A stretch of 64,000 nt of DNA from Fibrobacter sp. (GTDB lineage: Bacteria > Fibrobacterota > Fibrobacteria > Fibrobacterales > Fibrobacteraceae), in the NCBI GenBank assembly GCA_017526585.1, contig JAFXRC010000057.1:1-64000 (forward strand), read 5' to 3'. Shown here one piece after another: positions 26,285 through 61,635 of the stretch (its first letter is position 1; each line of letters opens with the position of its first letter). Position numbers and translations under genes: made by a program. The notes beneath the pieces are model-generated. The model did not search any database. It was not told where the DNA came from and saw only the letters and a program-made list of their open reading frames with translations.

Positions 26285-26287
26285 TTC

Positions 26288-35240: not shown

Positions 35241-37205
35241 ATGAAATTTCAAGAATCCTGCCCTAAAAAAATGGCTCTTGCCATTTCGGTGATGTCCGCT
35301 TTTATCTGGTCGCTTTCGTCTTGTGCTTCGAGCAAGAACGATGCGGTGGTGGAACAGCCCACTGTTTCTGAAACGCAACCGTCTGTTCAGCCTTTGCCGC
35401 AGTCGGTTCCTACGACTCTGTTTGAAACGAAGAAGGTGGGTGACGATAGGCAGGTGCGTGTCGTGGAAAAGCCAACGCTTGCCGCCCTTGATTTTGCTGC
35501 GTATTACAGCAATCCGATTCGCTTGGCGGGTAAGGATGAAAAGCCCGAGAACTATACCGGAAAGATGGCTGCGGTAACCGTGGCGGAATATCCGTTCCCG
35601 ATGCTTAGTTCCGTGTCGGAAACCGAGCCTGCGGTGGTCGCAGGTAGAGCCCCCCTTGCGTGGGAGCCGCTTTCAAAAATTCTCTACGCCCAGGTGGGCA
35701 ATGATTCCCTGGGGGTCCTGCTCAATGCCGTCGAGTCGGTCAAGTGGGATGAACCCGAAGTCTTCCGAGCCTTCCAGACTGTCTCTCGATTGTGGGGCGT
35801 GCCCATGAGTGATGGTTCCGTGGAATGGTGGGTCGAGGTGACTCCGGCTGCTTGGACGGGGCGCAAGGCTTTCTACGGAAAACTCAACCTGGTTTCGCAC
35901 GGCGAAACGGCTGAAATTTTGAATTATTACCTGACGGCAGAAATGAATGCCGAAGATGCGATGAACTGGGCTCGCACACTATCTTCCTATTGGTATCCCA
36001 CCTTGAATACCGACCTGGAAGTGCATACGCCAGGTGCTCCGTGGGAATCTCTCGAAAGCAGCAGACCTTTTGCGGTGATGCGTGGAAACCCGATGGGGAC
36101 TCCGATGTGGATCGCCTTTGAAGTGCCGGACTTCCGCTTGAGTGACGAGGCCCTGCGTGCTCGTGCCGTGGCGGATTCTTTGGCGGCGGCAGGCGAGGTG
36201 GTTCCTGTGAACCGGACTCTTGATACGAGTTCCGCATTCCGCTTGCAGACCCTAGCTGCATTGGAAGGAACTTGCCCCGCAAATGATGCTACCGCGAAGT
36301 TCCGCGATGCCCTCAAGAAAAAACTTGCGAAATTGCCGAAGGAACAGAACGCCTGGGCTGCAAATGAGATGCTCTGGTTCCGCCGCAACGCGAATTACCT
36401 GCTTGCCGATAAGATAACGGCGCAGGATTCCCTGCACAATCCGCTTCCGCGCCTTCTGGAACTCAAGAAGTACCTGGATTCCTTGAATGTGCAGCTCCTG
36501 GTGGTGCCGGTACCCGTGAAAGAGGAAATCTACGGAGAACGCCTTGTCGAAGGCACTGCTGCAGACCTTTGCGTAAATCCGGCCGGTCGCGAATTTACCC
36601 GCGAAATGCTTGCCGCAGGGCTCGACGTACTTGACCTTTATCCGGCGCTGATGGCGGCGAAGTCGGGTGACGAGCCGCCGCACTATAGCTACCAGCGTTA
36701 CGATACGCACTGGGCTCTGCCTGGAATGCTTGCTGCGTTGGAACAGCTGGCGGCGCGCATCACGCAGTATTCCTGGTATGCTGAATCGGGCGCACAGCCG
36801 GGTTCGCTAACCATGCAGGAGATGGTGACACTTCGCGAAGGTGATTTGGTGGCGCACTTACCCGATGCCGAAAAGTCGAAGTATCCTGCTGACACCTTGG
36901 CGGCAATGAAGGTTTTCAAGGGCTCGGAACCTTACAAGGGCGGCAAGAATTCTCCGATCCTCTTGATGGGCGATTCCTTTACGGGCGTCTTTGAGTCGGT
37001 CGACCAGAAGTCGGGTGGTCCGGGTTCACTACTTGCCTTTGCGACGGGTCTCGATGTTCAGGTGCTTACGAGTTGGGGTGGTGGCCCTGGCGTGTATCAC
37101 CGCATGATGAAAATGAAGAAGGATATGCAGAGCAAACGCCTTGTCATCTACATGATGACCGCTCGTGATTTCTGGCAGTCCCCGATGGAATGGGACGCTC
37201 TTTAG
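35241..37205 (+). CDS. AlgX/AlgJ-like SGNH lipoprotein
   Basis: 654 residues. Lipobox in the N-terminus (MSAFIWSLSSCASS). The N-terminal ~330 residues are unfamiliar beta-rich sequence. The C-terminal half resembles AlgX/AlgJ/DHHW SGNH proteins: WFRRNANYLL, LNVQLLVVPVPVKEEIYG, YQRYDTHWALPGM (the DTHW Asp-His pair) and ILLMGDSFTGVF with the nucleophile Ser. Such proteins transfer acetyl groups to exopolysaccharide with an MBOAT partner; one lies at 26288. First gene of the operon with the TIGR02171 lipoproteins. A start at ATG 35271 is possible. Confidence 0.7.
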   Translation: MKFQESCPKKMALAISVMSAFIWSLSSCASSKNDAVVEQPTVSETQPSVQPLPQSVPTTLFETKKVGDDRQVRVVEKPTLAALDFAAYYSNPIRLAGKDEKPENYTGKMAAVTVAEYPFPMLSSVSETEPAVVAGRAPLAWEPLSKILYAQVGNDSLGVLLNAVESVKWDEPEVFRAFQTVSRLWGVPMSDGSVEWWVEVTPAAWTGRKAFYGKLNLVSHGETAEILNYYLTAEMNAEDAMNWARTLSSYWYPTLNTDLEVHTPGAPWESLESSRPFAVMRGNPMGTPMWIAFEVPDFRLSDEALRARAVADSLAAAGEVVPVNRTLDTSSAFRLQTLAALEGTCPANDATAKFRDALKKKLAKLPKEQNAWAANEMLWFRRNANYLLADKITAQDSLHNPLPRLLELKKYLDSLNVQLLVVPVPVKEEIYGERLVEGTAADLCVNPAGREFTREMLAAGLDVLDLYPALMAAKSGDEPPHYSYQRYDTHWALPGMLAALEQLAARITQYSWYAESGAQPGSLTMQEMVTLREGDLVAHLPDAEKSKYPADTLAAMKVFKGSEPYKGGKNSPILLMGDSFTGVFESVDQKSGGPGSLLAFATGLDVQVLTSWGGGPGVYHRMMKMKKDMQSKRLVIYMMTARDFWQSPMEWDAL

Positions 37206-37954
37206 TCTCTATGTGGGCTCGACTCTCCGCACTCGCAAAGCGCCTGTTTTGGCCATTGCTGCTGATTGTGCTTGCGACTTCGCTTGCGCTGGTACTTTGG
37301 AGTGGTCGCAGTGAGAAGATGAGTTTCCGCGATGCGGCCTGTACTTTTGAAGACAAGTTGCCAGGCTGCTTGGATGCAGTGCCGGCATGGAACGGCGGGT
37401 TAGCTTTTTATGACAGCGCTTTGAATGCTTCGGGCGACACCTTGCAGAGCCTAAGGGATTTGCTCTGGGGTTACTGGAACCTGGAATTTGCAGGGGCGGG
37501 CGATGCCGCGGTGACTAGGGATGCAATCCTTCCGCTTCGTGTTATCGAAACGCGAAAGTCGGGGTGCATGGGGCTTTCGTGGCTTGCGATGATGGTTGCT
37601 GAATCGCGGCAGATTCCGCTTGCGGTAATGATGCTTCCGGGACATGTGTTCCTGCGCTACGGTGAAGGTGTTTCGGCGGTGAATTTGGAACCCAACCGCG
37701 AAGGCTATGGCTATACAGATGCCGAATACCGCGAAAAGTACAAGGCTGGTCCTTGGACCGGTCTTGAATTTGTTCCGCTGACTTCTGCTCAGTTTGTGGG
37801 CCTTGCCGCATTCAACATGGGAAATGTTTATCTCGACAGCGACTTGCGCCGCGCTTTGACCTGGTACCGCATGGCTGAAACATTCTTCCCGGAGTATCCG
37901 GGAATCAAGGCGAACCAGGAAATAGCGAAAAGCCGTTTACCGGACCATCTTTAG
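37190..37954 (+). CDS. Transglutaminase-like membrane-anchored protein
   Basis: 254 residues. A membrane segment (LFWPLLLIVLATSLALVLW) precedes a domain like SirB1/transglutaminase-core proteins: RKSGCMGLSWLAMMVAES with the cysteine, PLAVMMLPGHVFLRYG with the histidine and NLEPNREGYGY. The C-terminus has a TPR-like helical pair (GNVYLDSDLRRALTWYRMAE). It overlaps the AlgX-like gene by 16 bases if ATG 37190 is used; ATG 37211 is the alternative. Its role is unknown. Confidence 0.65.
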   Translation: MGRSLVSMWARLSALAKRLFWPLLLIVLATSLALVLWSGRSEKMSFRDAACTFEDKLPGCLDAVPAWNGGLAFYDSALNASGDTLQSLRDLLWGYWNLEFAGAGDAAVTRDAILPLRVIETRKSGCMGLSWLAMMVAESRQIPLAVMMLPGHVFLRYGEGVSAVNLEPNREGYGYTDAEYREKYKAGPWTGLEFVPLTSAQFVGLAAFNMGNVYLDSDLRRALTWYRMAETFFPEYPGIKANQEIAKSRLPDHL

Positions 37955-37977
37955 GTGCTTCTGGGGGGCGAAAATGC

Positions 37978-37988
37978 TATTTTTAGGG
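37978..37988 (+). promoter_or_regulatory. TATTTTTAGGG box before the first TIGR02171 gene
   Basis: TATTTTTAGGG ends two bases before ATG 37991. It matches the recurrent TATNTTT box of this window, but AGGG could equally serve as the ribosome site. A secondary promoter inside the operon is possible. Confidence 0.3.
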
Positions 37989-37990
37989 TA

Positions 37991-40768
37991 ATGTTGATCG
38001 CGTTACTTTTCCTATCTATTTCTTTTTTGGCAGCCTGTTCTAATTCTGTGGGAGCGTCGGCTAGTCATGACGAAAAGCCTTTTTTTGAGAAAGACTCCTC
38101 TACGGAAATGGTTCCTGTGAATGCAGGTAATGCGTTGGCGGTTTTAGGAACCAATAGCGATCTTGCTAAAGTAAATGAACGCCCGCAAATGCAGGTTTCC
38201 CTGAATTACGAATTTTCGATGGGACAACATGAAGTGACCTGCGGAGAATTCAATGAACTGATGAAGACTTTTTCGGGGCTTGAGCTCGAATGCGATCATG
38301 ATAGCCTTCCTGCGACGAATTTGACTTTTTATGATGCGGTCCTTTTTGCTAATGAACGGAGCAAGGCTGAGCGCCTTGATACGGTTTATTCCTATAGCGG
38401 AGCGATTTTCGATAACGAAAGACATTGTACGAACCTAGAAGGCTTCGTGTTTCATCCAGAAGTGGACGCATACCGCTTGCCGACCGAGGCGGAATGGGTG
38501 CTTGCAGCGGTCCAGAACTGGAATCCGCAAAATGCTTGGACTGCCGAAAATTCGGATTATAAATTGCACAAGGTATGCGGCAAGGCTGATTCGACGGCGA
38601 AATTCTGCGACATGGTTGGAAATGCAATGGAGTGGGTAAACGACTGGCTTGGCGGCTTCCGCGATACGACGCTTTCGAACTATGTGGGTGCCCCCGATGG
38701 GGGATCGCTTGGTCAGCGTATTGTAAAGGGGGGTAGTTTCCGAAATGCGGCCAGTTCCATAACGCTTTATGGAAGGGGCGATGTCTATACGGTTACTTCT
38801 TCGACTCGTGCGGACTATGTCGGCTTTCGAATTGCAAAGGGTTCCATTCCTAGTGCAGTCTGGATGGGGACCGATGGCAAGGCGGCTGAAAGTAGAGTTG
38901 CCCTACTGGCTTCGTCGGCGACGATGCGTTCCGTGATGGGAACGTACAAGGTGAAGCTCGTCTTTAGAAACGACCTTTCGGGGAACCTTGCCTATGTGGA
39001 CTATTCCGGCGGAATCCTCTCGGTCGTGGAAATTTTGGATTCTATCGAAGTCTATCATCCGGAAATTTCCCCGGACGGGAAGCGCGTCGCTTTCTGCACG
39101 GGTCTCGAAGGTGTTTCGGGTAAGTCCGAACTTTATGTGCGCGACTTGAATGCGGATGGCTCGAACCTCGTGAAACTCAAGGTGGAAAGTGCCGCGATTC
39201 CGCGCTGGCGTGTGCTTGAAAATGGAGATACGGTAATCGTCTATGTGACCGATGCGGGTAACAACAAGGATGAAACCTCCTTCAAGTCCACATCTACTTG
39301 GCAGGTGAAATTCTCGAACGGCAAGTTCGGTACGCCACAGAAACTTTTCGATGGCGCTTACCATGGTGGCATCAGCGAAGACAATACCTTGGCCGTCACG
39401 GGGGCGCGCCTTCTGCGTGCCCGCATCGCAAAGAAAGGCTCGACGCTGACTAATGCCCGCGATACCATCTGGTACAAGGACGGTGTCAATGCGGAACAGG
39501 CCTGCAATGTATCACTTTCGAAGGACGGCAGCAAGCGTACTGCGTTTCTCGATTTCGGTGGCAAGACGGGGCGTGCCTTTGTCGGTAAAAGCTATGCCAC
39601 GCACGAACGCCTGCTGATTGCCGACAGCACCGGAACTTTGCAAATGTCCGTGGCGGCTCCTTCTGGATTTACTTTTGACCACAGCGAATGGGCAACCGGC
39701 GCGGAAAATAAGGTCGTAGCGACGCTCACGAATGTAAATGGGGCGCACCAGAAGGTTGTGCTTGTCGATTTAGCCGACAGTTCCGTCGTGGATCTTCTGG
39801 AAGGAGACGAACTCTGGCACCCGAGTTTGTGGGTGAATGGCGCGATGAGTGTCGTTAATGTTGTGCTCGATAAGGACAGCGCTGGATTCTATATGCGAGA
39901 AGGTGATGCTTGGGGCGTTGCTCTGATGCGCCAAAATATGGAATTGCTGTGGCAATATAAGGATTCTGTTGATGTAGCTGTAGTCGGTTCTTCCAGGTCG
40001 ATGTTCTCGACGATGCCTTCGTTGATGAGCGATGATTTCTTTATGGTGAACTTCTCGCAGACCCCGAATAGTATTCACATGTCCAAGGATTTTCTCGATT
40101 TGTATTTATTCCATCACTTGAAAAAATTGAAGTATGTGATCGTTTCTCTGGATTTTGACTTTTGGTTTAAAATGGGTGACGAAGAGAGTGATAACTTCTT
40201 CCAAAATACTTACCGTAGCTATCCAGGCTATGTATATGACAAAAATCATAATTATTGGCAGGACGGATACCCCGAGGGATTGCTTGAATATACGAAAAAT
40301 GATTTGAATGTAGAACCGTATTTGCAGTTTGAAACGGATCGGGGAGCTCTGCTAGAATATTTCTGTGGCGGATGGCGAGTGGATGATCCGCTTGTAGAAG
40401 TCGATACGACTGCATTTGACAGCCAACTTTATTTGTATGAAAATAGCCTGAATTCCCTGATTGGAATAATTGAAAGTGCTCAAAATAGGGGCGTTACCGT
40501 AATAGGTGTCGTCTTCCCGCAGAATCCGTATTATAAGAATACGGGCTCGTTTGGACGCTATGGCACTCGCCGGAGTCTTGCAGAAAAGTATATCTCTTAT
40601 TTTGAAGAATTAGCATCGCAGTATTCCAACTTTATTTTTCTAGATGAGAATAAGATGGGAAATCATGAATATCGTGCAGAGCTGTTTGCTGATGAAGACC
40701 ACCTATGCGTTGAAGGCGCGAAGGTGTTTTCTGCGAAACTTGATTCCCTGTTGAGAACATTGAAATGA
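37991..40768 (+). CDS. TIGR02171-family lipoprotein, copy 1 (FGE-like, propeller, SGNH-like)
   Basis: About 925 residues from ATG 37991, with lipobox ISFLAAC. Three parts follow. The first is an FGE/SUMF1-like fold at about 40-290: SMGQHEVTCGEFNELM, YRLPTEAEWVLAAVQNW, NAMEWVNDWLGG, VKGGSFRNAA and YVGFRIA. The second is a TolB/PD40-like propeller at about 310-620 (EISPDGKRVAFCTG, SELYVRDLNADGSNL). The third is an SGNH-like domain at about 645-925: VAVVGSSRS, VIGVVFPQNPYYKNTGSFG, FLDENKMGNHEY and DEDHLCVEGA. The FGE cysteines are absent. The family is known from Fibrobacter with no assigned function; surface attachment is inferred from the lipobox. Confidence 0.85.
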   Translation: MLIALLFLSISFLAACSNSVGASASHDEKPFFEKDSSTEMVPVNAGNALAVLGTNSDLAKVNERPQMQVSLNYEFSMGQHEVTCGEFNELMKTFSGLELECDHDSLPATNLTFYDAVLFANERSKAERLDTVYSYSGAIFDNERHCTNLEGFVFHPEVDAYRLPTEAEWVLAAVQNWNPQNAWTAENSDYKLHKVCGKADSTAKFCDMVGNAMEWVNDWLGGFRDTTLSNYVGAPDGGSLGQRIVKGGSFRNAASSITLYGRGDVYTVTSSTRADYVGFRIAKGSIPSAVWMGTDGKAAESRVALLASSATMRSVMGTYKVKLVFRNDLSGNLAYVDYSGGILSVVEILDSIEVYHPEISPDGKRVAFCTGLEGVSGKSELYVRDLNADGSNLVKLKVESAAIPRWRVLENGDTVIVYVTDAGNNKDETSFKSTSTWQVKFSNGKFGTPQKLFDGAYHGGISEDNTLAVTGARLLRARIAKKGSTLTNARDTIWYKDGVNAEQACNVSLSKDGSKRTAFLDFGGKTGRAFVGKSYATHERLLIADSTGTLQMSVAAPSGFTFDHSEWATGAENKVVATLTNVNGAHQKVVLVDLADSSVVDLLEGDELWHPSLWVNGAMSVVNVVLDKDSAGFYMREGDAWGVALMRQNMELLWQYKDSVDVAVVGSSRSMFSTMPSLMSDDFFMVNFSQTPNSIHMSKDFLDLYLFHHLKKLKYVIVSLDFDFWFKMGDEESDNFFQNTYRSYPGYVYDKNHNYWQDGYPEGLLEYTKNDLNVEPYLQFETDRGALLEYFCGGWRVDDPLVEVDTTAFDSQLYLYENSLNSLIGIIESAQNRGVTVIGVVFPQNPYYKNTGSFGRYGTRRSLAEKYISYFEELASQYSNFIFLDENKMGNHEYRAELFADEDHLCVEGAKVFSAKLDSLLRTLK

Positions 40769-43554
40769 GACTATTGTTTTTCATCCTAGTCTCATTAGTA
40801 GTTCTCGGCTGCTCGAATTCGGAGAGCGTTTCGGTGCCACCTCAAGAAGCGTCTGTTGATTTCTCCGAAGATTCCTTGTCAGGAATGATTCGTGTCAAGG
40901 CGACGGAATCGACAATTGTTTTGGGAACGACTCTTGTGGAGGCGCGCGCGAATGAACGCCCTGAATTGCAGGTAAAATTTAATTACGATTTTTCGATGGG
41001 TCGCCATGAGGTGACTTGCGGCGAATTTAACGCCCTGATGAAATCTGCGACGGGGCTGTCCTTGGATTGCGAAGGTGATGAAATCCCTGCGACGAACGTG
41101 ACTTATTACGATGCAGTCCTGTTCGCTAATGAGCGCAGCAAGGCGGAAGGCTTCGATACGGCTTATACCTATACGGTGGCGAGTTTTGACGCTGCGAAAC
41201 ATTGTACCAATTTAGAAGGCTTCGCTTACCGTTCCGAGGTTAATGCATACCGCTTGCCGACCGAGGCGGAATGGGTGCTTGCAGCGGTCCAGAACTGGAA
41301 TCCGCAAAATAGCTGGACCGCCGAAAATTCGGATTACAAGCTGCACAAGGTTTGCGGCAAGGCGGATACTTCGGCGAAGTCGGGAGAACTCTGCGACATG
41401 GCGGGCAACGCGATGGAGTGGGTGAACGACTGGCTAGGCAATTTCCGTGATACGACGCTTGAAAACTATGTGGGCGCCCCCGACGGTGGAGCGCTGGGGC
41501 AACGAGTCGTGAAGGGTGGCAGCTACCGCAATGCGGTAGAGGCTATCAACCTGTATAGCCGCGGCGATATTTATACGGTGACATCGTCTACGAGGGCTGA
41601 TTATGTGGGCTTTCGCTTGGCGTTCGGCGCTATCCCCGATGCGGTATGGATGGGAAACGATGGTCGTGCAAATGATTCACGCATCGTTCCTCTTGCAAGC
41701 TCCGCGACAATCCGTTCCCTCGTCGGCACCTACAAGGCGAAACTTGCGTTCAGGAACGAACTTTCGGGAAATCTCGCTTTCATCGACTATTCTGGCGGAA
41801 TCCTCTCGGTCGTGGAAATTTTGGATTCTATCGAAGTCTATCATCCGGAAATTTCCCCGGACGGGAAGCGTGTCGCTTTCTGCACGGGTCTCGAAGGTGT
41901 TTCGGGTAAGTCCGAACTTTATGTGCGCGACTTGAATGCAGATGGCTCGAACCTCGTGAAGCTCAAGGTGGAAAGTGCCGCGATTCCGCGCTGGCGCATT
42001 CTTGAAAATGGCGATACGGTAATCGTCTATGTGACCGATGCGGGCAATAATAAGGATGACGCTGCGTTTAAGTCGGCGGCTACTTGGCAGGTGAAATTCT
42101 CGAATGGCAAATTTGGCTCGCCTAAGAAACTTTTCGACGGCGCGTATCACGGCGGCATCAGCGAAGACAACACCCTTGCCGTGACGGGAGCGCGCCTTCT
42201 CCGCGCCCGTATCGCAAAGTCGGGCTCGACGCTCACGGAAAAAGCCCGCGATACCATCTGGTACAAGGACGGTGACGATGCGGAACAAGCCTGCAACGCA
42301 TCGCTTTCGAAAGACGGCAGCAAGCGTACCCTCTTCCTCGATTTCGGTGGCAAGACGGGGCGAGCCTTTGTCGGTAAAAGCTACGCCACGCATGAACGCC
42401 TACTGATTGCCGACAGCACCGGAACTTTGCAAAAGTCCGTAGCGGCACCTTCCGGCTTTACCTTCGACCATAGCGAATGGGCGAGTGGTACCGCCGATAA
42501 GGTCGTAGCGACGCTCACGAATATAAACGGGGCGCACCAGAAGGTTGTGCTGGTGAATCTCTCCGACAATTCCGTTGTAAATCTCATCGAAGGCGAAGAC
42601 CTTTGGCATCCCTGCTTTTGGGTGAGCGACAATTCCTTTGAAAACGATGACGTGCTGCTAGATTTGGATAGCGCCGGGGTGTACTTTAATAATCTAGGCG
42701 GCGAAGGGGCTATTGTCCTTCGTTACAAGATGGAGCTTCTTTGGAATTATAAGGATTCCGCTAATGTCGTTGTCGTGGGCTCGTCGCGACCGCTTGGCGC
42801 CATCAATCCGCTGGAAATGGGTGTACCTTTCTTTGTATTGAACCTGTCCAATGTTCCGAACATGATGGTTGTTTCTGAATACCTCTTGCTAAACTATGTC
42901 ATTCCGCATGTGAAAAATCTGAAATACATAGTTGTGTCTCTCGATATTGACTTGTGGTATCATTCAGAATACGAAAGCTACAATTTCTTCTATCAGGAAT
43001 ACCTGAATTATCCGGGATATGTGTATGACAGAAATCATAACTACTGGAAAGACGGTTTCCCCGAAAAGATAAGCCGCTTGACAGAGGAATCGCTTGGATT
43101 GGGTTATTATCAGAATAACCTTGTGGCGTCTCGCGGCTTTAATTACGAAGAATCGAATACATGGGAAAAGAATCCCTCCGTCGATAACGATAGTACTTGG
43201 ATGGATAACCTCTCCGCCAATTACGAGGCGAGCCTTGGACACTTGAAAAACATATTGCGCGAATCGGAACAGGCGGGAGTCTATGTAATAGGAGTTGTTT
43301 TCCCGCAGAGTCCGAATTTTAAGAAGACCGGTTCGTTTGGAAAATACGGCATTCGAAGAAGTGAAGCTCCTGCTTTGCTGGACGGTCTCAAAAAACTGGA
43401 AAAAGAATATCCTCATTTTGTTTTCTGGGATGAAAATAAAATGGGAGACCATGACTATACGGATGAAATGGCCGCGAATAAGGATCACCTGTGTGCCCTC
43501 GGTGCAACGCAGTTCACTTCTCGCTTGGATTCCCTTCTGCGAACTCTGAAATGA
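40765..43554 (+). CDS. TIGR02171-family lipoprotein, copy 2
   Basis: 929 residues with lipobox LVVLGCSNS. Same three-part architecture as copy 1. FGE-like and propeller regions are close to those of copies 1 and 3, including a 132-base stretch identical to copy 3. The SGNH-like region is more divergent but keeps VVVVGSSRP, VVFPQSPNFKKTGSFG, WDENKMGDHDYTDE and KDHLCALGA. ATGA overlaps at both ends couple it to copies 1 and 3. Confidence 0.85.
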   Translation: MRLLFFILVSLVVLGCSNSESVSVPPQEASVDFSEDSLSGMIRVKATESTIVLGTTLVEARANERPELQVKFNYDFSMGRHEVTCGEFNALMKSATGLSLDCEGDEIPATNVTYYDAVLFANERSKAEGFDTAYTYTVASFDAAKHCTNLEGFAYRSEVNAYRLPTEAEWVLAAVQNWNPQNSWTAENSDYKLHKVCGKADTSAKSGELCDMAGNAMEWVNDWLGNFRDTTLENYVGAPDGGALGQRVVKGGSYRNAVEAINLYSRGDIYTVTSSTRADYVGFRLAFGAIPDAVWMGNDGRANDSRIVPLASSATIRSLVGTYKAKLAFRNELSGNLAFIDYSGGILSVVEILDSIEVYHPEISPDGKRVAFCTGLEGVSGKSELYVRDLNADGSNLVKLKVESAAIPRWRILENGDTVIVYVTDAGNNKDDAAFKSAATWQVKFSNGKFGSPKKLFDGAYHGGISEDNTLAVTGARLLRARIAKSGSTLTEKARDTIWYKDGDDAEQACNASLSKDGSKRTLFLDFGGKTGRAFVGKSYATHERLLIADSTGTLQKSVAAPSGFTFDHSEWASGTADKVVATLTNINGAHQKVVLVNLSDNSVVNLIEGEDLWHPCFWVSDNSFENDDVLLDLDSAGVYFNNLGGEGAIVLRYKMELLWNYKDSANVVVVGSSRPLGAINPLEMGVPFFVLNLSNVPNMMVVSEYLLLNYVIPHVKNLKYIVVSLDIDLWYHSEYESYNFFYQEYLNYPGYVYDRNHNYWKDGFPEKISRLTEESLGLGYYQNNLVASRGFNYEESNTWEKNPSVDNDSTWMDNLSANYEASLGHLKNILRESEQAGVYVIGVVFPQSPNFKKTGSFGKYGIRRSEAPALLDGLKKLEKEYPHFVFWDENKMGDHDYTDEMAANKDHLCALGATQFTSRLDSLLRTLK

Positions 43555-46349
43555 TGAAGCTGATATTCGCCATTCTTGTTTTGCTGGTTTGCGCCTGCTC
43601 CAATTCGGAGAGTGTTTCTGTGGCGCATCAGGGCGATTCTGTTGATGTTTTGGAGGACTCGCTTTCGGGAATGCTTCGAATCGTTGCTTCCGGTGCGACA
43701 GTTGTCTTGGGAACGAACGCGGACAACGCTCCGGTAAGCGAACGCCCCGAGATGCAGATAAAGTTCGACTACGATTTTTCGCTGGGTCGCCATGAGGTGA
43801 CTTGCGGCGAGTTTAACGCGCTGATGAAATCCGCAGTGGGGCAGGGGCTGTCCTTGGATTGCGAAGGTGATGAAATCCCTGCGACGAACGTGACTTATTA
43901 CGATGCAGTCCTGTTCGCTAATGAGCGCAACAAGGCGGAAGGCTTCGATACGGCTTATACCTATACGGTGGCGAGTTTTGACGCTGCGAAACATTGTACC
44001 AATTTAGAAGGCTTCGCTTACCGTTCCGAGGTTAATGCATACCGCTTGCCGACCGAGGCGGAGTGGGTGCTTGCCGCATCGCAGAAATGGAATGTACAGA
44101 ACGGTTGGACCGCTGAAAATTCAGATTACAAACTGCACAAGGTCTGTGGCAAGGCGGATACTTCGGCGAAGTCGGGTGAACTCTGCGACATGGCGGGTAA
44201 TGCCATGGAGTGGGTGAACGACTGGCTAGGCAATTTCCGAGATACGACGCTTGAAAATTATGTGGGTGCCCCCGATGGCGGCGCGCTGGGACAGCGTGTC
44301 GTAAAGGGCGGCAGCTACCGCAATGCATCGGAATCTATCAGCTTGTATAGCCGCGGCGATGTGTATACGGTGACCTCTTCGACCCGCGCCGATTATGTGG
44401 GCTTTCGCCTGGCGTTCGGTGCTATTCCCGATGCGGTATGGATGGGTTCCGACGGTAGGGCGAATTCCAGCAGGGTAGTCCCGATTGCAAGTTCTGCGAC
44501 AATCCGTTCCCTTGTCGGTACCTACAAGGCAAAACTTGCGTTCAGAAACGACCTCTCGGGAAACCTCGCCTATATCGATTATTCCAGCGGAATCCTCTCG
44601 GTCGTGGAAATTGCGGATTCTATCGAAGTCTATCATCCGGAAATTTCCCCGGACGGTAAACATGTCGCTTTTTGCACGGGCCTCGAAGGTGTTTCGGGCA
44701 AGTCCGAGCTTTATGTGCGCGACTTGAATGCGGAAGGTTCAAACCTCGTAAAGCTCAAGGTGGAAAGTGCCGCGATTCCGCGCTGGCGCATTCTTGAAAA
44801 TGGCGATACGGTAATCGTCTATGTGACCGATGCGGGTAACAACAAGGATGAAACCGCCTTCAAAGCTGCGTCGACCTGGCAGGTGAAATTTTCGAATGGC
44901 AAATTTGGCTCGCCCAAGAAACTTTTCGATGGCGCGTATCACGGTGGCATCAGCGAAGACAACACACTTGCCGTGACGGGAGCGCGCCTCCTCCGCGCTC
45001 GCATCGCAAAGCTGGGCTCGACGCTTACGGAAAAAGCCCGCGATACAATCTGGTACAAGGACGGCGACGATGCGGAACAGGCTTGCAATGCCTCCCTTTC
45101 GAAGGACGGCAGCAAGCGCACCTTGTTCCTCGATTTCGGCGGCAAGACGGGGCGTGCCTTTGTCGGTAAAAGCTACGCTACGCACGAACGCCTGCTGATT
45201 GCCGACAGCACCGGAACCTTGCAAAAGTCCGTGGCGGCTCCTTCCGGCTTCACCTTCGACCATAGCGAATGGGCGAGTGGCACCGCCGATAAGGTCGTTG
45301 CGACGCTTACGAATGTAAACGGGGCTCACCAGAAAATCGTCCTGATTGACATCTCCGACTCTAGCCTCGTCGAACTCGTCCAGGGCGATGAAATTTGGCA
45401 TCCGAGCTTCTGGACGAGTGGAAAAGCCTTTGCCTCGAACGATGTGCAGCTGGACTTGGATAGCGCCGGTGCCTATATGAATCCCGGTGATGAGTGGGGG
45501 CCGGTCCTGATGCGTTATAACATGGAGCTTTTGTGGCGCTACCGCGACTCAGTCAATGTCGCCATTATCGGTTCTTCCCGTCCCTTCTATTCTTTGTCGC
45601 CAGGGGCCTTGTCGCCTGAATTTTTTGCGGTGAATTTGGCTCACACCCCTAATTCAATTTATGCTTCTCGCGATTATCTTGAAAAGTACCTGATTCGTCA
45701 CTTGAAGAACTTGAAATATGTCGTGGTTTCGCTGGATATCGATTTCTGGAATAAAGTCGATGGTCCGGAGGGTGATAATTTTTTTGCCGTTACCTACAAA
45801 AAATATCCCGGCTATGTGTACGATGAAAATCACGGATACTGGGATGAAGGCTATCCGACCGGTTTGCTGGAGTGTACCGAAAATTCCGTATCGGTGACCG
45901 ATGGCAATCTGTATCTGGATGACCGTGGTCGGTATATGGGAACATATTGCATTTCATGGGGTGGGACGCCCGAAGTAGAAATGGATTCCACTTATTTTGA
46001 TGATAGAATGTATCTGGTCGAAAATAGTCTGGAAGCTTTGAAAAGCATTGTTGAAGTCTCGTTAAATAGAAACATCCATGTGGTAGGGATGATTTTTCCC
46101 CAGAATCCCAGGTATAAGGAAACGGGGGCTTTTGGACGTTATGGGATGCGGCGTAGTCTGGCGAAGTCCTTAATTGACCGGTTCCACGAATTTGAAACAA
46201 TCTATCCGAATTTCACACTGCTTGATGAAAATAAGATGGGAAATCACGATTATTCCGACAGCGAGGCGGTGGATGCCGACCATCTGTGTAGTCAAGCGAC
46301 TCCTAAAATAACTTATCGCCTAGATTCCCTTCTGAGAACTTTGAAATGA
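43551..46349 (+). CDS. TIGR02171-family lipoprotein, copy 3
   Basis: 932 residues from ATG 43551 (43554 also possible), lipobox LVLLVCACSNS. The architecture is as in copy 1. The frame extends upstream to 43491, but that part would overlap copy 2 in another frame and lacks a signal peptide, so it is rejected. C-terminal motifs: VAIIGSSRP, MIFPQNPRYKETGAFG, LDENKMGNHDYSD and DADHLCSQA. This copy and copy 4 begin with almost the same signal peptide. Confidence 0.85.
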   Translation: MMKLIFAILVLLVCACSNSESVSVAHQGDSVDVLEDSLSGMLRIVASGATVVLGTNADNAPVSERPEMQIKFDYDFSLGRHEVTCGEFNALMKSAVGQGLSLDCEGDEIPATNVTYYDAVLFANERNKAEGFDTAYTYTVASFDAAKHCTNLEGFAYRSEVNAYRLPTEAEWVLAASQKWNVQNGWTAENSDYKLHKVCGKADTSAKSGELCDMAGNAMEWVNDWLGNFRDTTLENYVGAPDGGALGQRVVKGGSYRNASESISLYSRGDVYTVTSSTRADYVGFRLAFGAIPDAVWMGSDGRANSSRVVPIASSATIRSLVGTYKAKLAFRNDLSGNLAYIDYSSGILSVVEIADSIEVYHPEISPDGKHVAFCTGLEGVSGKSELYVRDLNAEGSNLVKLKVESAAIPRWRILENGDTVIVYVTDAGNNKDETAFKAASTWQVKFSNGKFGSPKKLFDGAYHGGISEDNTLAVTGARLLRARIAKLGSTLTEKARDTIWYKDGDDAEQACNASLSKDGSKRTLFLDFGGKTGRAFVGKSYATHERLLIADSTGTLQKSVAAPSGFTFDHSEWASGTADKVVATLTNVNGAHQKIVLIDISDSSLVELVQGDEIWHPSFWTSGKAFASNDVQLDLDSAGAYMNPGDEWGPVLMRYNMELLWRYRDSVNVAIIGSSRPFYSLSPGALSPEFFAVNLAHTPNSIYASRDYLEKYLIRHLKNLKYVVVSLDIDFWNKVDGPEGDNFFAVTYKKYPGYVYDENHGYWDEGYPTGLLECTENSVSVTDGNLYLDDRGRYMGTYCISWGGTPEVEMDSTYFDDRMYLVENSLEALKSIVEVSLNRNIHVVGMIFPQNPRYKETGAFGRYGMRRSLAKSLIDRFHEFETIYPNFTLLDENKMGNHDYSDSEAVDADHLCSQATPKITYRLDSLLRTLK

Positions 46350-49114
46350 TGAAGTTGATATTCGCTCTGATTGTTTTTTTGATTTGCGCATGCTCCAATT
46401 CGGAGAGTGTCTCCGAGACAGTGCCGAACGGGTCTGCTGATGTCAAGGAAAAATCTCTTTTGGGAATGCTACGCGTTGAAGCCTCTGGTGCGACGGTTGT
46501 CTTGGGAACGAATTCGGACAACGCTCCGGCAAGTGAACGCCCCGAAATGCGTGTGAAGTTTAGTTACGATTTTTCGCTGGGCGTGCATGAGGTGACTTGT
46601 GGAGAATTTAACGCCCTGATGAAAACCGCGACGGGACTGTCCCTGGATTGTGTCACGGATAGCATTCCCGCGACGAATGTGACTTATTACGATGCGGTTC
46701 TGTTCGCCAATGAACGCAGCAAGGCGGAAGGTTTCGACACGGCTTATACCTATACCTCTGCGTCGTTCGATGCCGAAAAGCATTGCATAAACATAGACGC
46801 CCTGGCGTATCACCCAGAAAAGAATGCGTACCGTTTGCCAACCGAGGCGGAGTGGGTGTTTGCCGCATCGCAGGATTGGAATGTTCTGAACGGCTGGACT
46901 GCTGAAAATTCAGACTACAAATTGCATAAGGTTGGTAGCAAAGCGAAATCGGGTGGCTTTTACGACATGGTCGGCAACGCCATGGAGTGGGTGAACGACT
47001 GGCTGGGCAACTTCCGCGATACGATTCTTGAAAATTTTGTGGGTGCACCCGACGGCGGCGCGCTCGGACAACGAATTGTGAAGGGCGGCAGCTACCGTAA
47101 TGCGGTGGAGTCTATCAACTTGTATAGCCGCGGTGATATCTATACGGTTTCGTCGTCAACCCGCGCCGATTATGTCGGCTTCCGCCTGGCGCATGGTAAT
47201 ATTCCTGGCGCGGTATGGATGGGTTCCGACGGCAGGGCGAATTCCAGCAGGGTAATCCCGCTTGCAAGTTCTGCGACAGTCCGTTCCCTTGTCGGTACCT
47301 ACAAGGCGAAACTCGCGTTCAGGAACGACCTTTCGGGAAACCTCGCCTTCATCGACTATTCCGGCGGAATTCTCTCGGTCGTAGAAATTGCGGATTCAAT
47401 CGAAGTTTATCATCCTGAAATATCCCCGGACGGGAAGCATGTAGCTTTCTGCACGGGTCTCGAAGGTCTGTCGGGAAAATCTGAGCTTTATGTGCGTGAC
47501 TTGAATGCTGAAGGGACGAACCTCGTGAAGCTCAAGGTGGAAAGTGCCGCGATTCCTCGCTGGCGCGTGCTTGAAAATGGAGATACGGTAATCGTTTATG
47601 TGACCGATGCGGGTAACAACAAGGATGACGCTGCGTTTAAGTCTGCGTCTACTTGGCAAGTGAAATTTTCGAACGGGAAGTTTGGTACACCACAGAAACT
47701 TTTCGATGGCGCTTACCATGGCGGCATCAGCGAAGATAACACCTTAGCCGTGACGGGTGCACGCCTCTTCCGTGCCCGTATCGCAAAGCCGGGCTCGACG
47801 CTTACGGAAAAAGCCCGTGATACTATCTGGTACAAGGACGGTGACGACGCCGAACAGGCCTGTAACGCATCGCTTTCGAAAGATGGCACCAAGCGCACCC
47901 TGTTCCTCGATTTCGGCGGCAAGACGGGGCAAGCCTTTGTCGGTAAAAGCTACGCCACGCATGAACGCCTGCTGATTGCCGACAGCACCGGAACTTTGCA
48001 AAAGTCCGTGGCGGCACCTTCCGGCTTTACCTTCGACCATAGCGAATGGGCGAGTGGCACCGCCGATAAGGTCGTAGCGACGCTCACGAATGTAAACGGC
48101 GCTCACCAGAAAATCGTCCTGCTAGACATCTCTGACTCTAGCCTCGTCGAGCTCGTTCAGGGTGATGAAATCTGGCATCCGAGTTTCTGGACGAGTGAAA
48201 AAGCCTTTGCCTCGAATGATGTGCAGCTGGACTTGGATAGCGCCGGCGTGTACTTGCAAGAAAGTTGTTTGAGCTCCTTGAGCACGCTCCGCATAAAGAT
48301 GGAAGCGTATTGGAAGTATTTGGAACAGACAAATGTCATTCTTGTGGGAAGTTCGAGAATGCAGAGAGGCGTCAATCCCGACCTTTTCCCGGAATGGAAA
48401 ATGCTGAATTTCGGGGTGCTGGGAATCGATCCCAATAGGGACTTGTACTTCATTGAAAACTATGTGATGAATCATCTGGATGAAATCAAGGCGATTGTGC
48501 TGAGCTTGGATTTTGATAACTGGCATGGAATTGAGGATCATCTGGGGTATCTTTTGTCTGCAGCTCCAGGGTTTATGTACGATGCGAATCATGGCTTCTG
48601 GAAAGACGGTGTTCCGAAGGGCTTTGTGGAAGCGGTTGAAAATTCGTATCCACCCCTTGAAGCGGAGCGTAAGACTTTTTCGGAACGCGGCAATATGATT
48701 AGCGAAGTTCACAGTTGGGATTTCCACGAAATAGAGGTGCTGAACGATTCCATGGTGACTGATCAACGCTGGGCTCTTGTCGATAACAGTATCGCACGCC
48801 TGGTCAATATCGTCGATGAGGTCTCCAAGAAAAATATCTATGTCATCGGCATCATTTTCCCGCAAGCGCCCATGTATAAAAAGACGGGTTCCATTGGCTT
48901 GTACGGATTCCAGCGGAGTGCCGCACGAAAGCTTATTGACCGACTTGATTCAATTGATCGTGTGAAAAGTCATTTTGTGTTGATGGATGAAAATAAAATG
49001 GGTGACCATGACTATACTGACGAAATGGCGCTCAATAGGGATCATCTAAGTTACTTGGGTGCGGAACGATTGACCAGACGCATTGATTCCCTGTTAAAGA
49101 CTCTGGAGTGGTAA
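46346..49114 (+). CDS. TIGR02171-family lipoprotein, copy 4, most divergent C-terminus
   Basis: 922 residues, lipobox IVFLICACSNS. FGE-like and propeller regions follow the other copies, though KADTSAKSGELCDM is shortened to a form without cysteines. The SGNH-like region differs most: VILVGSSRMQRGVNPDLFP, LSLDFDNWHGIEDHLGY, GIIFPQAPMYKKTGSIG, DENKMGDHDYTDEM and NRDHLSYLGA. The GSSR and DENKMG landmarks remain. It overlaps copy 3 by ATGA and is followed four bases later by the polytopic membrane protein. Confidence 0.85.
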   Translation: MMKLIFALIVFLICACSNSESVSETVPNGSADVKEKSLLGMLRVEASGATVVLGTNSDNAPASERPEMRVKFSYDFSLGVHEVTCGEFNALMKTATGLSLDCVTDSIPATNVTYYDAVLFANERSKAEGFDTAYTYTSASFDAEKHCINIDALAYHPEKNAYRLPTEAEWVFAASQDWNVLNGWTAENSDYKLHKVGSKAKSGGFYDMVGNAMEWVNDWLGNFRDTILENFVGAPDGGALGQRIVKGGSYRNAVESINLYSRGDIYTVSSSTRADYVGFRLAHGNIPGAVWMGSDGRANSSRVIPLASSATVRSLVGTYKAKLAFRNDLSGNLAFIDYSGGILSVVEIADSIEVYHPEISPDGKHVAFCTGLEGLSGKSELYVRDLNAEGTNLVKLKVESAAIPRWRVLENGDTVIVYVTDAGNNKDDAAFKSASTWQVKFSNGKFGTPQKLFDGAYHGGISEDNTLAVTGARLFRARIAKPGSTLTEKARDTIWYKDGDDAEQACNASLSKDGTKRTLFLDFGGKTGQAFVGKSYATHERLLIADSTGTLQKSVAAPSGFTFDHSEWASGTADKVVATLTNVNGAHQKIVLLDISDSSLVELVQGDEIWHPSFWTSEKAFASNDVQLDLDSAGVYLQESCLSSLSTLRIKMEAYWKYLEQTNVILVGSSRMQRGVNPDLFPEWKMLNFGVLGIDPNRDLYFIENYVMNHLDEIKAIVLSLDFDNWHGIEDHLGYLLSAAPGFMYDANHGFWKDGVPKGFVEAVENSYPPLEAERKTFSERGNMISEVHSWDFHEIEVLNDSMVTDQRWALVDNSIARLVNIVDEVSKKNIYVIGIIFPQAPMYKKTGSIGLYGFQRSAARKLIDRLDSIDRVKSHFVLMDENKMGDHDYTDEMALNRDHLSYLGAERLTRRIDSLLKTLEW

Positions 49115-49118
49115 GAGT

Positions 49119-50756
49119 ATGCGCCGGCTTGACATCGACAGGATGGTTCTCTTTTTGCCGGCTTTCTTGGTGGCGCTCTTTTCTGTTTTCCCGCTGACCG
49201 ATACCGATATCTGGTGGCATCTTGCCTGTGCCCGCGAGTGGGTGAATGCCTGGACGCCTGTGCGCACCCCCGTGGTGAATGTACACGAGTATTTTCAGGC
49301 CGTTGTCGCTTTTGTATACGGCGTTGGCGGCGCCCCTCTGCTGGTGGCGTTCAAGGCAGTTTTGTGGGGTGTCGTTTTTGCGCTGTTTTTATCTAATGGC
49401 AGCCGCGGCGCGGTTCTGGAAAAGAATGTCATTGCGAGCCCCACAGGAGAGCCTGCCACGAGCGTAGCGTGGTGGTGGCAATCTCTAATTGCAGTTTTTC
49501 TCCTTTTCGTTTTTCGCTATCATTTTGAGATTCGTCCGGTGCTTTTTACGCTCCTGTTTCTAGGAATTTATTGGAAAGTTTTGCCAGGGATTTTTGCTGT
49601 TCGTCATTGCGAGTCCCACGGGAACACTGATCTTGCTTTTTCTGGGTGTGTGAAACGTCATTGCGAGCCCCGTAGGGGCGCGGCAATCTCTAGAGGCTGC
49701 ACAGTGGCTTTAATTCTTGCAATTCAGTGGCTCTGGTGCAAGTGCCAGGGACTTTATATTCTGGGCCCGCTTTTTGCGCTGCTAGTGTTGCTGGTTTGCG
49801 TCTGGAATTCCCGACGGGTTGGGGAGAAACTTTCGACAGGTTCTGTTGCGTGGCGCGCTGCATTCGTGCTTGGCCTGTTTTCGATGCCGTTCCTGCATCG
49901 TGATGGACTGAACCTGTTTCTGTATCCGTTCGGGCTTTTGGACCGTCTGTTGGGACTTTCGCCTTCTGCAGCCGTTTTCGCCAGTGAAATCGCCGAGAAC
50001 CGTTCCCCGGTAACGCTTCTGGTGGCGGGGGAGAATACGCTTGAAAGCGTGCTGATGATTGCGCTGTGCTTCTTGGGATTTTTTGTAGGTCTGCGTCGCT
50101 TGCTGCGTCCTTCGCCTTGTATACCGCCACGAGCGACCGAAGGGAGCGAAGCAATCTCTAGAAGATTGATTCAAAATATCGCACTTCTTGTGACCGCAAT
50201 CCTCGCCCTTGTCGCCGAACGCAACTTTGTGCTGTTTTTGCCGTTGCTTTTAGGGACCGCTTGCGAGCTTCGTTTTGGGGGATGTGCTTTCGGAACAGCT
50301 CGGTGCAGCGGCGTTGTAAAGTATGCCTGCTTCATCGTCATCGCCTTTTGCTTGGGTCTCTGGGCGCGTTCCCTTGCCGCTTACGACTACTCGATGGTTG
50401 CTTGTCAGCGTGTCCCTGTCGATGCAGCGGAATGGATGCGGCAAAATCCTCATGCCGGCAGGCTCTTTAACGATGACCGCGCAGGCGGCTACTTGGCGTT
50501 TGTGAATCCCGCCGATTCGATTTACATGGATGGAAGGTTCATCTTGAAGACGGCAGAATTCTTTGGGCGGTATTTGGAATATGCAAATAATCCGTCGCTG
50601 TTCATCGCTGATGCCGACTCCTTGAATATCGATCGCGCTATCTTCCCGCTGCGCTATTACGCCCGCTGGGATGCCCTGCTGCAAGCCCTCGAAAACGCGC
50701 CACGCTGGCACCTTGCCTACCGCGACAACTACTTCGCCGTCTTCGATAAATTCTAG
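49119..50756 (+). CDS. Polytopic membrane protein with in-frame REP-like insertions
   Basis: 545 residues, about ten membrane segments. The motif PLTDTDIWWHLACAREWV after the first helix resembles GT-C-fold and related membrane proteins with an acidic pair in the first external loop. The C-terminal soluble part (PVDAAEWMRQNPHAGRLFND, GGYLAFVNPADSIYMDGRF) resembles that of the same group. Function unknown; sugar transfer to an envelope polymer is possible. Three regions of the coding sequence are REP-like repeats read as protein (residues ~104-123, ~162-192 and ~335-349), all in loops between helices. Last gene of the operon, followed by a terminator. Confidence 0.65.
   Translation: MRRLDIDRMVLFLPAFLVALFSVFPLTDTDIWWHLACAREWVNAWTPVRTPVVNVHEYFQAVVAFVYGVGGAPLLVAFKAVLWGVVFALFLSNGSRGAVLEKNVIASPTGEPATSVAWWWQSLIAVFLLFVFRYHFEIRPVLFTLLFLGIYWKVLPGIFAVRHCESHGNTDLAFSGCVKRHCEPRRGAAISRGCTVALILAIQWLWCKCQGLYILGPLFALLVLLVCVWNSRRVGEKLSTGSVAWRAAFVLGLFSMPFLHRDGLNLFLYPFGLLDRLLGLSPSAAVFASEIAENRSPVTLLVAGENTLESVLMIALCFLGFFVGLRRLLRPSPCIPPRATEGSEAISRRLIQNIALLVTAILALVAERNFVLFLPLLLGTACELRFGGCAFGTARCSGVVKYACFIVIAFCLGLWARSLAAYDYSMVACQRVPVDAAEWMRQNPHAGRLFNDDRAGGYLAFVNPADSIYMDGRFILKTAEFFGRYLEYANNPSLFIADADSLNIDRAIFPLRYYARWDALLQALENAPRWHLAYRDNYFAVFDKF
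49428..49487. repeat. REP-like repeat copy (long variant) within the membrane-protein gene
   Basis: Begins GTCATTGCGAGCCCC and ends GGCAATCTCTA, with an inner CCACGAGCGTAGCGTGGTGG block. It is read in frame as part of the protein. Confidence 0.7.
49602..49624. repeat. REP-like half copy within the membrane-protein gene
   Basis: CGTCATTGCGAGTCCCACGG, matching the left arm of the repeat; the right arm is absent. Confidence 0.55.
49656..49694. repeat. REP-like repeat copy (short variant) within the membrane-protein gene
   Basis: CGTCATTGCGAGCC, then CCGTAGGGG, then CGCGGCAATCTCTAGA. Both outer blocks are identical to those of the copy at 32791-32828 on the opposite strand. Confidence 0.75.
50125..50164. 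repeat. REP-like right-arm copy within the membrane-protein gene
   Basis: CGCCACGAGCGACCGAAGGG followed by AGCGAAGCAATCTCTAGAA. It shares CCACGAGCG and GCAATCTCTA with the copy at 49428. Confidence 0.6.
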
Positions 50757-50770
50757 CCTCGCCGAACATA

Positions 50771-50802
50771 AAAAAGGCCCGGCACGAATGCCGGACCCCT
50801 TT
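50771..50802. terminator. Terminator between the lipoprotein operon and the GH5 gene (bidirectional)
   Basis: AAAAAGGCCCGGCA-CGAA-TGCCGGACCCCTTT: a 9-bp stem with one mismatch, A-rich on the left and T-rich on the right. It can end both the operon and the convergent GH5 transcript. Confidence 0.75.
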
Positions 50803-50831
50803 CTCTCTCGTTGGTAAAACCAATTTCAAGT

Positions 50832-52190
50832 CTACTTGATCTGTATTGCTCGAACCATCTTGGACGAACCCTTTTGGATTCGTGCGAGATACTTGCCTGC
50901 AGGGAGGCTTGCGAGCGAAAGCGTTCCACTGACCTGGTCGATTCTCATAAGCTTGTCGCCCTTGATGGTGAAAATTTCGACCGTTGCAGCGCCTCCGGCA
51001 ATGTGCAGTGTGTTCCCGACAACGCTTACATTGAAGTTGAGGTCAGACTGGGTGAAAATAGGGGTTTCATTGCCACCGTTTCCGCACTTTGTATAACTTG
51101 TCGGGTTCGTGGCGAGGTAGCCCTTGACCATATTGCCGGAAGTGGTGTATTGGAGTGAGGTCTTGCTCGAAGAACCCTGGAATGCGGCGGTTCCTTCGCT
51201 AATTTTGGATGCGGACCAGTTCGCCCAGGAGAGCTTGTTGCCGTCTATCCAGTTTTGCCAGCCCGTGTTCTTGCTCTGGTCCGGTTCGCCACCGCCATCG
51301 GCGTTACCCGTACCCCATTCGGAAACGAACACGGAAAGACCCGCATCTATTGCCTGCTGTGCATTTGCGCCTTCGCAAGCAGATCCCCAAGAGGTCTGTC
51401 CGCTCCAACAGTGAGAATTGGCGTAATAATGGAATGTGTAGGCGATGTTTTCGCCAGAAACTGTATTGCCGATCGCTTCTTGCGGATTCTGGTCGTACTG
51501 CCTGTTGCCGACAAGAATCAGGTTGTCGGAATGCTGACGGATGACGGGAACAATTTTTTCGGCATAAGTCTTGATCTCGCTCCAAGATGTAGATATGGGC
51601 TCGTTATAAAGTTCAAAGATGACGTTGTCGTACTTACCCCATTTTTGGGCCATTTCGGTAAAGAACTTGGTGGCGTTGTCAACTTCAGTGTGTGCCTGGT
51701 GAGAATGCCAGTCAATAATGACGTAAATGTCGTTTTCGATAGCGGCTTGTACGACCGTGTTCATGAGGTTCGTCTGGAATTCCGCATCTGATGCGTAACC
51801 GGTAATATGGGCGGACTTGTCGTCTCCGCAGCTTTCCGAGCCGTCCTTGCAGCCCCACCAGTCATCGGTTGTTGTTGCCATGGCGGCGCGTACGACCTGA
51901 ATGTTCATGTCGCGGACCATAGTGGCAATTCCCTCGGATGTCCAGAATTCTGTTGCCTTGGGTAAAAGGCTCCAGTAAAGGCTCATGCCTCGCACCTGCA
52001 CTTCGGCGCCGTCCTTTACTCCTTCGCAGCTGCCGTAAATGCGGCCCTTGCCCTGCGAGTTCTTGCCGGTCATCAGCTGACCGTACTGACTGACAGGACC
52101 CACGCGGGTGGGAGTGATGTCTTGGGCGGAGGCGAAAGTTGCGCCTAATGCCAGAGCCGAAAAAAGTGCGATTTTTGAGAATTTTTTCAT
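50832..52190 (-). CDS. Secreted GH5 endoglucanase with type IX-like C-terminal tail
   Basis: 452 residues. Start at ATG 52190, with AAGGG nine bases upstream; the frame reaches 52382 but that part is not protein-like. Signal peptide MKKFSKIALFSALALGATFASAQ, then a GH5 TIM barrel: VVRAAMATTTDDWWG, VIIDWHSHQAHTE, NVIFELYNEPIS with the acid/base Glu, YTFHYYANSHCW and SVFVSEWGTG with the nucleophile Glu. The last ~70 residues (VVGNTLHIAGGAATVEIFT, SLASLPAGKYLARIQ, MVRAIQIK) resemble a type IX secretion sorting domain. It likely hydrolyses cellulose or mixed glucans outside the cell. Confidence 0.92.
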   Translation of the reverse strand: MKKFSKIALFSALALGATFASAQDITPTRVGPVSQYGQLMTGKNSQGKGRIYGSCEGVKDGAEVQVRGMSLYWSLLPKATEFWTSEGIATMVRDMNIQVVRAAMATTTDDWWGCKDGSESCGDDKSAHITGYASDAEFQTNLMNTVVQAAIENDIYVIIDWHSHQAHTEVDNATKFFTEMAQKWGKYDNVIFELYNEPISTSWSEIKTYAEKIVPVIRQHSDNLILVGNRQYDQNPQEAIGNTVSGENIAYTFHYYANSHCWSGQTSWGSACEGANAQQAIDAGLSVFVSEWGTGNADGGGEPDQSKNTGWQNWIDGNKLSWANWSASKISEGTAAFQGSSSKTSLQYTTSGNMVKGYLATNPTSYTKCGNGGNETPIFTQSDLNFNVSVVGNTLHIAGGAATVEIFTIKGDKLMRIDQVSGTLSLASLPAGKYLARIQKGSSKMVRAIQIK

Positions 52191-52263
52191 TATAAACATC
52201 CCTTTTTTACTTGAAAATAGGTTTTCTTCGCAAAAAACGGAAAAAAAAGAACTTCTTTTTTGT

Positions 52264-52277
52264 TTACATGCGTGTAA
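52264..52277. promoter_or_regulatory. Palindrome TTACA-TGCG-TGTAA between GH5 and the propeller gene
   Basis: A 5-bp inverted repeat with a 4-base centre in the divergent intergenic region, 74 bases upstream of the GH5 start. A similar TGTAA/TTACA pair lies 86 bases before the GH11 start. Confidence 0.3.
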
Positions 52278-52360
52278 TATGTGAGTTTTATCATGTTTTT
52301 GGGGTCTTGAGTGCCGTTTTTTAGGGGATTTTACTAGATTAGGGGAACTTTGAGGTTTAT

Positions 52361-61584: not shown

Positions 61585-61635
61585 CACTGTGCGGGGGCCT
61601 CGAATGGGGCCGATGCAATCCGTTATATAAATAAC

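Follow-up and report, generated by a model that had tools for sequence, protein, structure and literature searches.

What are the lipoproteins encoded between positions 37991 and 49114 of this Fibrobacter DNA, and what might they do for the cell? The region lies in a stretch of 64,000 nucleotides (here, the window) on contig C68 of G000, a Fibrobacter-type, rumen-type genome that is 81% complete. Fibrobacter is a main fibre degrader of the rumen. The initial annotation described lipoproteins that join an FGE fold, a propeller and a C-terminal domain, and this basic observation is confirmed. The region is not one gene; it comprises four contiguous genes on the + strand, each neighbouring pair overlapping by 4 bp:

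37991 to 40768, + strand: copy 1, 1268 bits to TIGR02171, with an FGE-fold domain, a TolB-like propeller and an SGNH head
40765 to 43554, + strand: copy 2, 1320 bits, overlapping copy 1 by 4 bp
43551 to 46349, + strand: copy 3, 1289 bits, lipobox CACSNS
46346 to 49114, + strand: copy 4, 1257 bits

Copy 1 starts in frame at the ATG at 37991, the mechanically called ORF beginning at an alternative GTG at 37955; likewise, the lipoprotein ATG of copy 3 is at 43551 and its mechanical ORF runs from a GTG at 43491. All four copies match TIGR02171 (NCBIfam, Fb_sc_TIGR02171 family lipoprotein) over the full length at 1257 to 1320 bits (cut-off 544), and Pfam FGE-sulfatase at ~ 1e-25, so the matches are far beyond chance. 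What had been read as an unusual surface enzyme thus belongs to an existing named family, a large one in Fibrobacter. Its members exceed the cut-off in 86 of 167 Fibrobacterota genomes but in no control genome out of 14. Ten of the better Fibrobacteraceae genomes were inspected and hold 6 to 18 matches each, counting FGE-only matches, and contig C36 of G000 carries two further full-length members. The lipobox Cys is present in 93 of 100 family rows, the remaining rows being gaps.

The literature search returned no paper naming TIGR02171 and no proposed function for the family. NCBIfam names it without a function, and neither its domains and operon nor its MBOAT link and evolution by modules appear to be described in the literature searched. 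Already known are the family name, the SGNH-MBOAT principle, and the FGE and TolB folds; new, within the literature searched, are the identification of the protein's three parts, its connection with an O-acylation gene set and the way in which stalk and head evolve.

Some family members depart from the standard form. Those at L106 (1404-3329, propeller-less) and L092 (from 8713) lack all or much of the propeller, and contig C21 of G067 (38415-39269) holds scattered TIGR02171 gene pieces with a stop codon, apparently a decayed copy. Elsewhere in the window, a protein with a FISUMP domain (TIGR02145), another large Fibrobacter family, is encoded near the cluster at 54233-57073. A 905-codon ORF lies antisense over the whole length of a gyrase/topoisomerase A-like gene (58867-61584 and 58870-61587) and is probably a codon-usage shadow.

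The FGE-fold and propeller stalk

Structures were predicted for copy 1 in full length and, separately, for the copy 4 head. The full-length model, built with 100 family sequences (pLDDT 91.4, pTM 0.88), places two domains ahead of the head:

38102 to 38851, + strand: copy 1 FGE-fold domain (residues ~ 38-287, counted from the ATG), PF03781 at 6e-25
38897 to 39841, + strand: copy 1 TolB-like beta-propeller (residues ~ 303-617), matching TolB (2w8b) with Z 22.8 over 263 residues

Residues 31-288 of the model match FGE-fold structures, namely TvpA (2y3c, Z 26.9), PvdO (22.9) and human FGE (~ 21). The initial annotation had proposed an FGE-fold domain without its active cysteines, and a TolB-like propeller; both proposals stand. 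RLPTEAEW, NAMEWVNDW, GGSFRN/GGSYRN and GFR each occur in all four copies, which share both fold and N-terminal sequence signature with the formylglycine-generating enzyme (PF03781) but, by sequence, lack its copper-binding pair of active-site cysteines: none of the four has a Cys between GGS and GFR, and among 100 relatives such a Cys occurs, at one point or another of this segment, in 8. FGE-fold proteins, such as GldK/PorK, PvdO and TvpA, usually lack the FGE cysteines, so the loss is no special sign. TvpA and PvdO, the nearest structures, likewise put the fold to other uses. Since TvpA leads the FGE-fold matches, we also weighed a diversity-generating retroelement, and dropped the idea because the matching stretch, GRGDVYTVTSSTRADYVGFR, is highly conserved. 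The propeller is borne out by the predicted structure, and a sequence profile also finds TolB for it in copy 1 (6e-5). The FGE-fold module and propeller together would form the stalk, or docking part, of an outer-envelope lipoprotein.

The SGNH head

A fold search with the full-length copy 1 model listed only FGE-fold and propeller matches, and none for the C-terminal head, so a head was modelled separately. The heads and the predicted catalytic residues are:

39872 to 40765, + strand: SGNH head of copy 1, placed by the counterpart domain model of copy 4
42664 to 43551, + strand: SGNH head of copy 2, placed by alignments; nearest head (83%) in another genome
45456 to 46346, + strand: SGNH head of copy 3, placed by alignments; nearest head (69%) in another genome
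48233 to 49111, + strand: SGNH head of copy 4, modelled alone (pLDDT 95.2, pTM 0.93)
39992 to 39994, + strand: Ser668 of copy 1, in GSSR, the predicted nucleophile (100 of 100 rows)
40700 to 40702, + strand: predicted catalytic His of copy 1 (DHL, residue 904; 100 of 100 rows)

The modelled head is predicted to have the alpha/beta/alpha fold of the SGNH superfamily. Its best PDB matches are SGNH proteins, PAF-AH with Z 13.8 over 190 residues and DltD with Z 13.2 over 245 residues, the longest structural alignment of the list; sialate O-acetylesterase, PatB (Z ~ 12), OatA (Z ~ 12) and TesA follow, the SGNH matches spanning Z 11-14. Because rows within 1 Z are tied, Z alone favours no SGNH subfamily. 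Three of the top VIA rows, 9hi4-9hi6, represent designed scaffolds, and we left them out of the comparison. The SGNH-like C-terminal domain suggested by the initial annotation is thus an SGNH fold in prediction, and the outcome that would have spoken against it, a fold unlike SGNH, did not appear.

That annotation had also pointed to the Ser of GSSR and the His of DH as landmarks. GSSR and DHL are present in all four copies; the second Ser of the former and the His of the latter do not vary among 100 family members from the whole phylum. Range arithmetic, which assumes a gapless alignment between the catalytic residue and the nearer alignment end, puts the catalytic Ser at S41 of the head via TesA and OatA and at 39 via PAF-AH, and the His at H271 via all three. 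We take the triads of these enzymes to be S10, D154 and H157 in TesA, S453, D575 and H578 in Staphylococcus aureus OatA, and S47, D192 and H195 in PAF-AH. The two landmarks accordingly coincide, by this arithmetic, with catalytic positions in all three enzymes, and the claim of a triad in the heads rests on this together with conservation. An Asn after strand 2 is kept in 99 of 100 members. At the block V Asp site (DxxH), 48 of 100 members have D, 49 have N and 3 have G; copies 1 and 3 of the window have D, copies 2 and 4 have N. An Asp directly precedes the His in 75 of 100 members, including all four window copies, and could replace the block V Asp. Ser-His dyads occur in the SGNH superfamily (PMC9487903). 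The heads also carry a YDxNH motif (window 40238-40249, copy 1 residues 750-753; D in 100 and H in 93 of 100), which is absent from the MBOAT-partner SGNH of L190.

A plain Pfam scan of the heads gave weak matches to Lipase_GDSL_2, DUF1574, ALGX, SGNH and DltD amid chance matches, and a sequence search against the PDB gave weak matches only, mostly to SGNH proteins. Several TIGR02171 ORFs of other genomes pass the gathering score of the DltD family (PF04914), with no match to it in the window's own genome. DltD works with the MBOAT DltB in moving D-alanyl groups to teichoic acids. The heads share with it the SGNH fold; unlike DltD, they are fused to an FGE-fold domain and propeller, lipid-anchored and present as many paralogues per genome, and no dltABC genes were noticed beside the array. 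The head profile did not match the profile of the AlgX-like protein of the operon (gene X below). This mismatch fits the circular permutation of AlgJ/AlgX (PMC4148444) and is not read as a lack of kinship.

Heads also occur on their own: as a 338-residue lipoprotein in two genomes (G060, at L148, and G067), and as a protein with the classic GDS motif in a third (G036). G154 has an SGNH gene and an MBOAT gene that overlap. The SGNH gene aligns to 276 columns of the head profile (98.7%, E 2.7e-16), GSSH facing GSSR and DHLG facing DHLS. It lies ~ 3 kb from a TIGR02171 gene, and this stand-alone relative of the heads is an apparent MBOAT partner.

Link of the heads to an MBOAT/AlgX-type gene set

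The array is flanked in the window by genes that recur with it:

25886 to 26284, + strand: small predicted secreted protein; in several lineages its homologues also immediately precede the MBOAT
26288 to 27706, + strand: MBOAT acyltransferase (PF03062 at 5.8e-26), C-terminus FLYFQF
35241 to 37205, + strand: gene X, AlgX-like SGNH lipoprotein (PF16822 at 1.3e-18)
37190 to 37954, + strand: gene T, transglutaminase-like (PF13369 at 1.4e-7)
49119 to 50756, + strand: gene G, polytopic membrane protein that regularly closes the array on its 3' side, with invariant TDTDIWWHLACAR
52361 to 53572, + strand: TolB-like PD40 propeller protein (PD40 at 1.4e-16), beside G or X homologues in deep lineages

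In X, a D/H/S triad (D488, H490 and S579) is invariant in 13 aligned sequences; in T, C126 and H152 are invariant or nearly so in 22. G is possibly GT-C-like; it gave no convincing Pfam match and none in a PDB sequence search. The operon order is X, T, one to six TIGR02171 genes, then G, and X, T and G stand beside arrays at 18, 26 and 28 loci, respectively, many loci being cut off at their ends. In another genus, g6, a chromosome (G144) has the order X-T-G-F-F. Many TIGR02171 genes stand alone, outside the operon.

The MBOAT is split from the rest in the window: it and the small protein occupy 25886-27706, ~ 8 kb upstream of the remainder (35241-53572). Across Fibrobacter genomes it is likewise not adjacent to the array, lying ~ 8-12 kb off or unlinked. 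Deep lineages bring the set together. In nine such genomes (G044, G006, G018, G016, G040, G146, G003, G031 and G020), X homologues lie beside the orthologue of the window MBOAT, accompanied by homologues of at least some among T, G and the TolB-like gene at 52361, and in G044 a TIGR02171 gene is within 10 kb of this MBOAT/AlgX-like cluster. The FXYXXF C-terminus is present in 13 of 13 MBOATs examined, including the FLYFQF of the window. FXYXXF is the acyl-shuttle motif of MBOAT-SGNH systems, and its Tyr carries acetyl in PatA and serves SGNH partners (PMC12148441). The TolB-like gene (also at L163, 5059-6273) lies near the operon and, in G067, near the stand-alone head gene, as though the two domains could function on separate polypeptides too. 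At L204 (142-1272), a propeller-only relative of TIGR02171 (~ 270 profile positions) adjoins T and G homologues, possibly as a separate form of the stalk.

The association extends to gene content across the phylum. Presence was set by hand from tables, as a best E < 1e-100 for TIGR02171 and the MBOAT orthologue and ~ 1e-30 or less for X, and kinship was handled by counting genera, not on a tree. On this basis, the presence of TIGR02171 matches that of X in 37 of 40 genera (p 6e-8) and that of the MBOAT orthologue in 34 of 40 genera (p 8e-6) and 154 of 167 genomes. A control, the ClC channel gene from between the two gene sets of the window, agrees with TIGR02171 in 24 of 40 genera (p 0.17). 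Five genomes have TIGR02171 without the MBOAT orthologue and eight the reverse, several of them incomplete. Thirteen genomes of the window's genus without full TIGR02171 are also without the MBOAT orthologue, X and G; five of them (G106, G107, G114, G115 and G124) keep ClC. The SGNH heads are thus linked to an MBOAT/AlgX-type gene set. With the alginate O-acetylation system AlgI/AlgJ/AlgX, this cluster shares an MBOAT with FXYXXF and one or two AlgX/AlgJ-like proteins; it differs by adding transglutaminase-like, polytopic and TIGR02171 proteins, and other alginate genes were not noticed beside it.

Evolution of the array and a possible role in envelope O-acylation

Stalk and head have different histories. 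Among the window copies, propellers are 89-95% identical (66-73% at four-fold sites) and FGE parts 71-89%, against 34-56% for the heads, whose four-fold sites (23-38%) are about saturated. The own genome holds the nearest relative of 13-15 of 151 stalk parts versus 2 of 151 heads, a weak test because close species are in the set; we therefore relied on identity-matched comparison and trees. Among 160 genes, same-array pairs with propeller identity of 0.80-0.95 have median head identities of 0.39-0.46, versus 0.75-0.81 for cross-genome pairs of equal propeller identity. Maximum-likelihood trees unite the propellers of the window in one clade (100/99) but place each of its heads with heads of other genomes or species; grouping the four heads together is rejected (p-AU ~ 1e-36), in a head tree that has long branches elsewhere. 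Stalks also group by genome at L042, L164 and L040 (trees) and L067 (identity-matched comparison).

With propellers in one clade and heads grouping across species, the stalks appear homogenised and the heads distinct. Such strong conflict between head and stalk trees would also arise had heads been replaced, by swapping or lateral gain, with no gene conversion of stalks. We give this alternative, which concerns the evolutionary part only, a small chance of being right: stalks cluster by genome in several independent genomes while heads keep their relatives across species, which makes repeated stalk homogenisation the simplest account. The simplest reading of the sequences is, then, that gene conversion has acted on stalks within arrays, and that the heads are old and separate.

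So, what do the heads do? On balance, and with moderate confidence, we read them as SGNH O-acyltransferases, or esterases, of a multi-headed envelope O-acylation system of the MBOAT/AlgX type. We infer a route in which the MBOAT would take acetyl, or another acyl group, across the inner membrane to the Tyr of its C-terminal FLYFQF. A periplasmic SGNH carrier (X, its AlgJ-like partner or a head itself) would accept acetyl from the MBOAT, and different heads may then pass the acyl group to different glycan acceptors of the envelope or surface, or strip such groups. A relay would be needed between the inner-membrane MBOAT and a lipoprotein of the outer envelope. Besides this gap, several observations count against the reading: the Asn at the block V site in about half the family, the distance of the MBOAT from the array in Fibrobacter, the genomes that have TIGR02171 or the MBOAT orthologue but not both, and the many TIGR02171 genes outside the operon. 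By keeping the stalks of an array uniform, gene conversion could allow many heads to dock on one machine. The fuller scheme, in which one MBOAT feeds many surface lipoproteins, gene conversion maintaining the uniformity of their stalks while their SGNH heads are diversified for different acceptors, is put forward tentatively and is, in our estimate, rather doubtful.

Alternatively, the heads might be surface esterases for plant fibre that deacylate hemicellulose during fibre breakdown, with no tie to the MBOAT. The lineage of Fibrobacter is fibrolytic, the SGNH matches of the head include acetyl-xylan and carbohydrate esterases (7toh, 7ddy), and a gene at 50832-52382 reads from its sequence as cellulase-like. 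We nevertheless think this unlikely, given partners that are AlgX-like, transglutaminase-like and polytopic, a cluster that is MBOAT-linked phylum-wide and is no glycan-breakdown locus, and a stand-alone head relative that is itself an apparent MBOAT partner. A non-catalytic envelope scaffold or adhesin, in which the head binds and the protein is structural as are GldK/PorK of the type IX secretion system, would suit a strongly conserved stalk whose FGE-fold part resembles PorK/GldK, where the fold is structural, but is quite improbable because the Ser and His of the head persist in 100 of 100 members across the phylum while head identity drops to 20-30%, as expected of an active site.

Regardless of which acceptors the heads might serve, most of the interest lies in the operon, the MBOAT link and the contrast between stalk and head, all absent from the initial annotation. 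MBOAT-SGNH systems are known from the modification of peptidoglycan, alginate, cellulose and teichoic acids, and the O-acylation reading would extend them by a branch that is anchored by lipid and bears a propeller. For TIGR02171, a first concrete, testable role follows from the operon and the MBOAT link. If that role is borne out, a single membrane donor would supply numerous surface enzymes in Fibrobacter, and module-wise gene conversion would illustrate how these enzymes stay compatible with the donor while their acceptors diversify.
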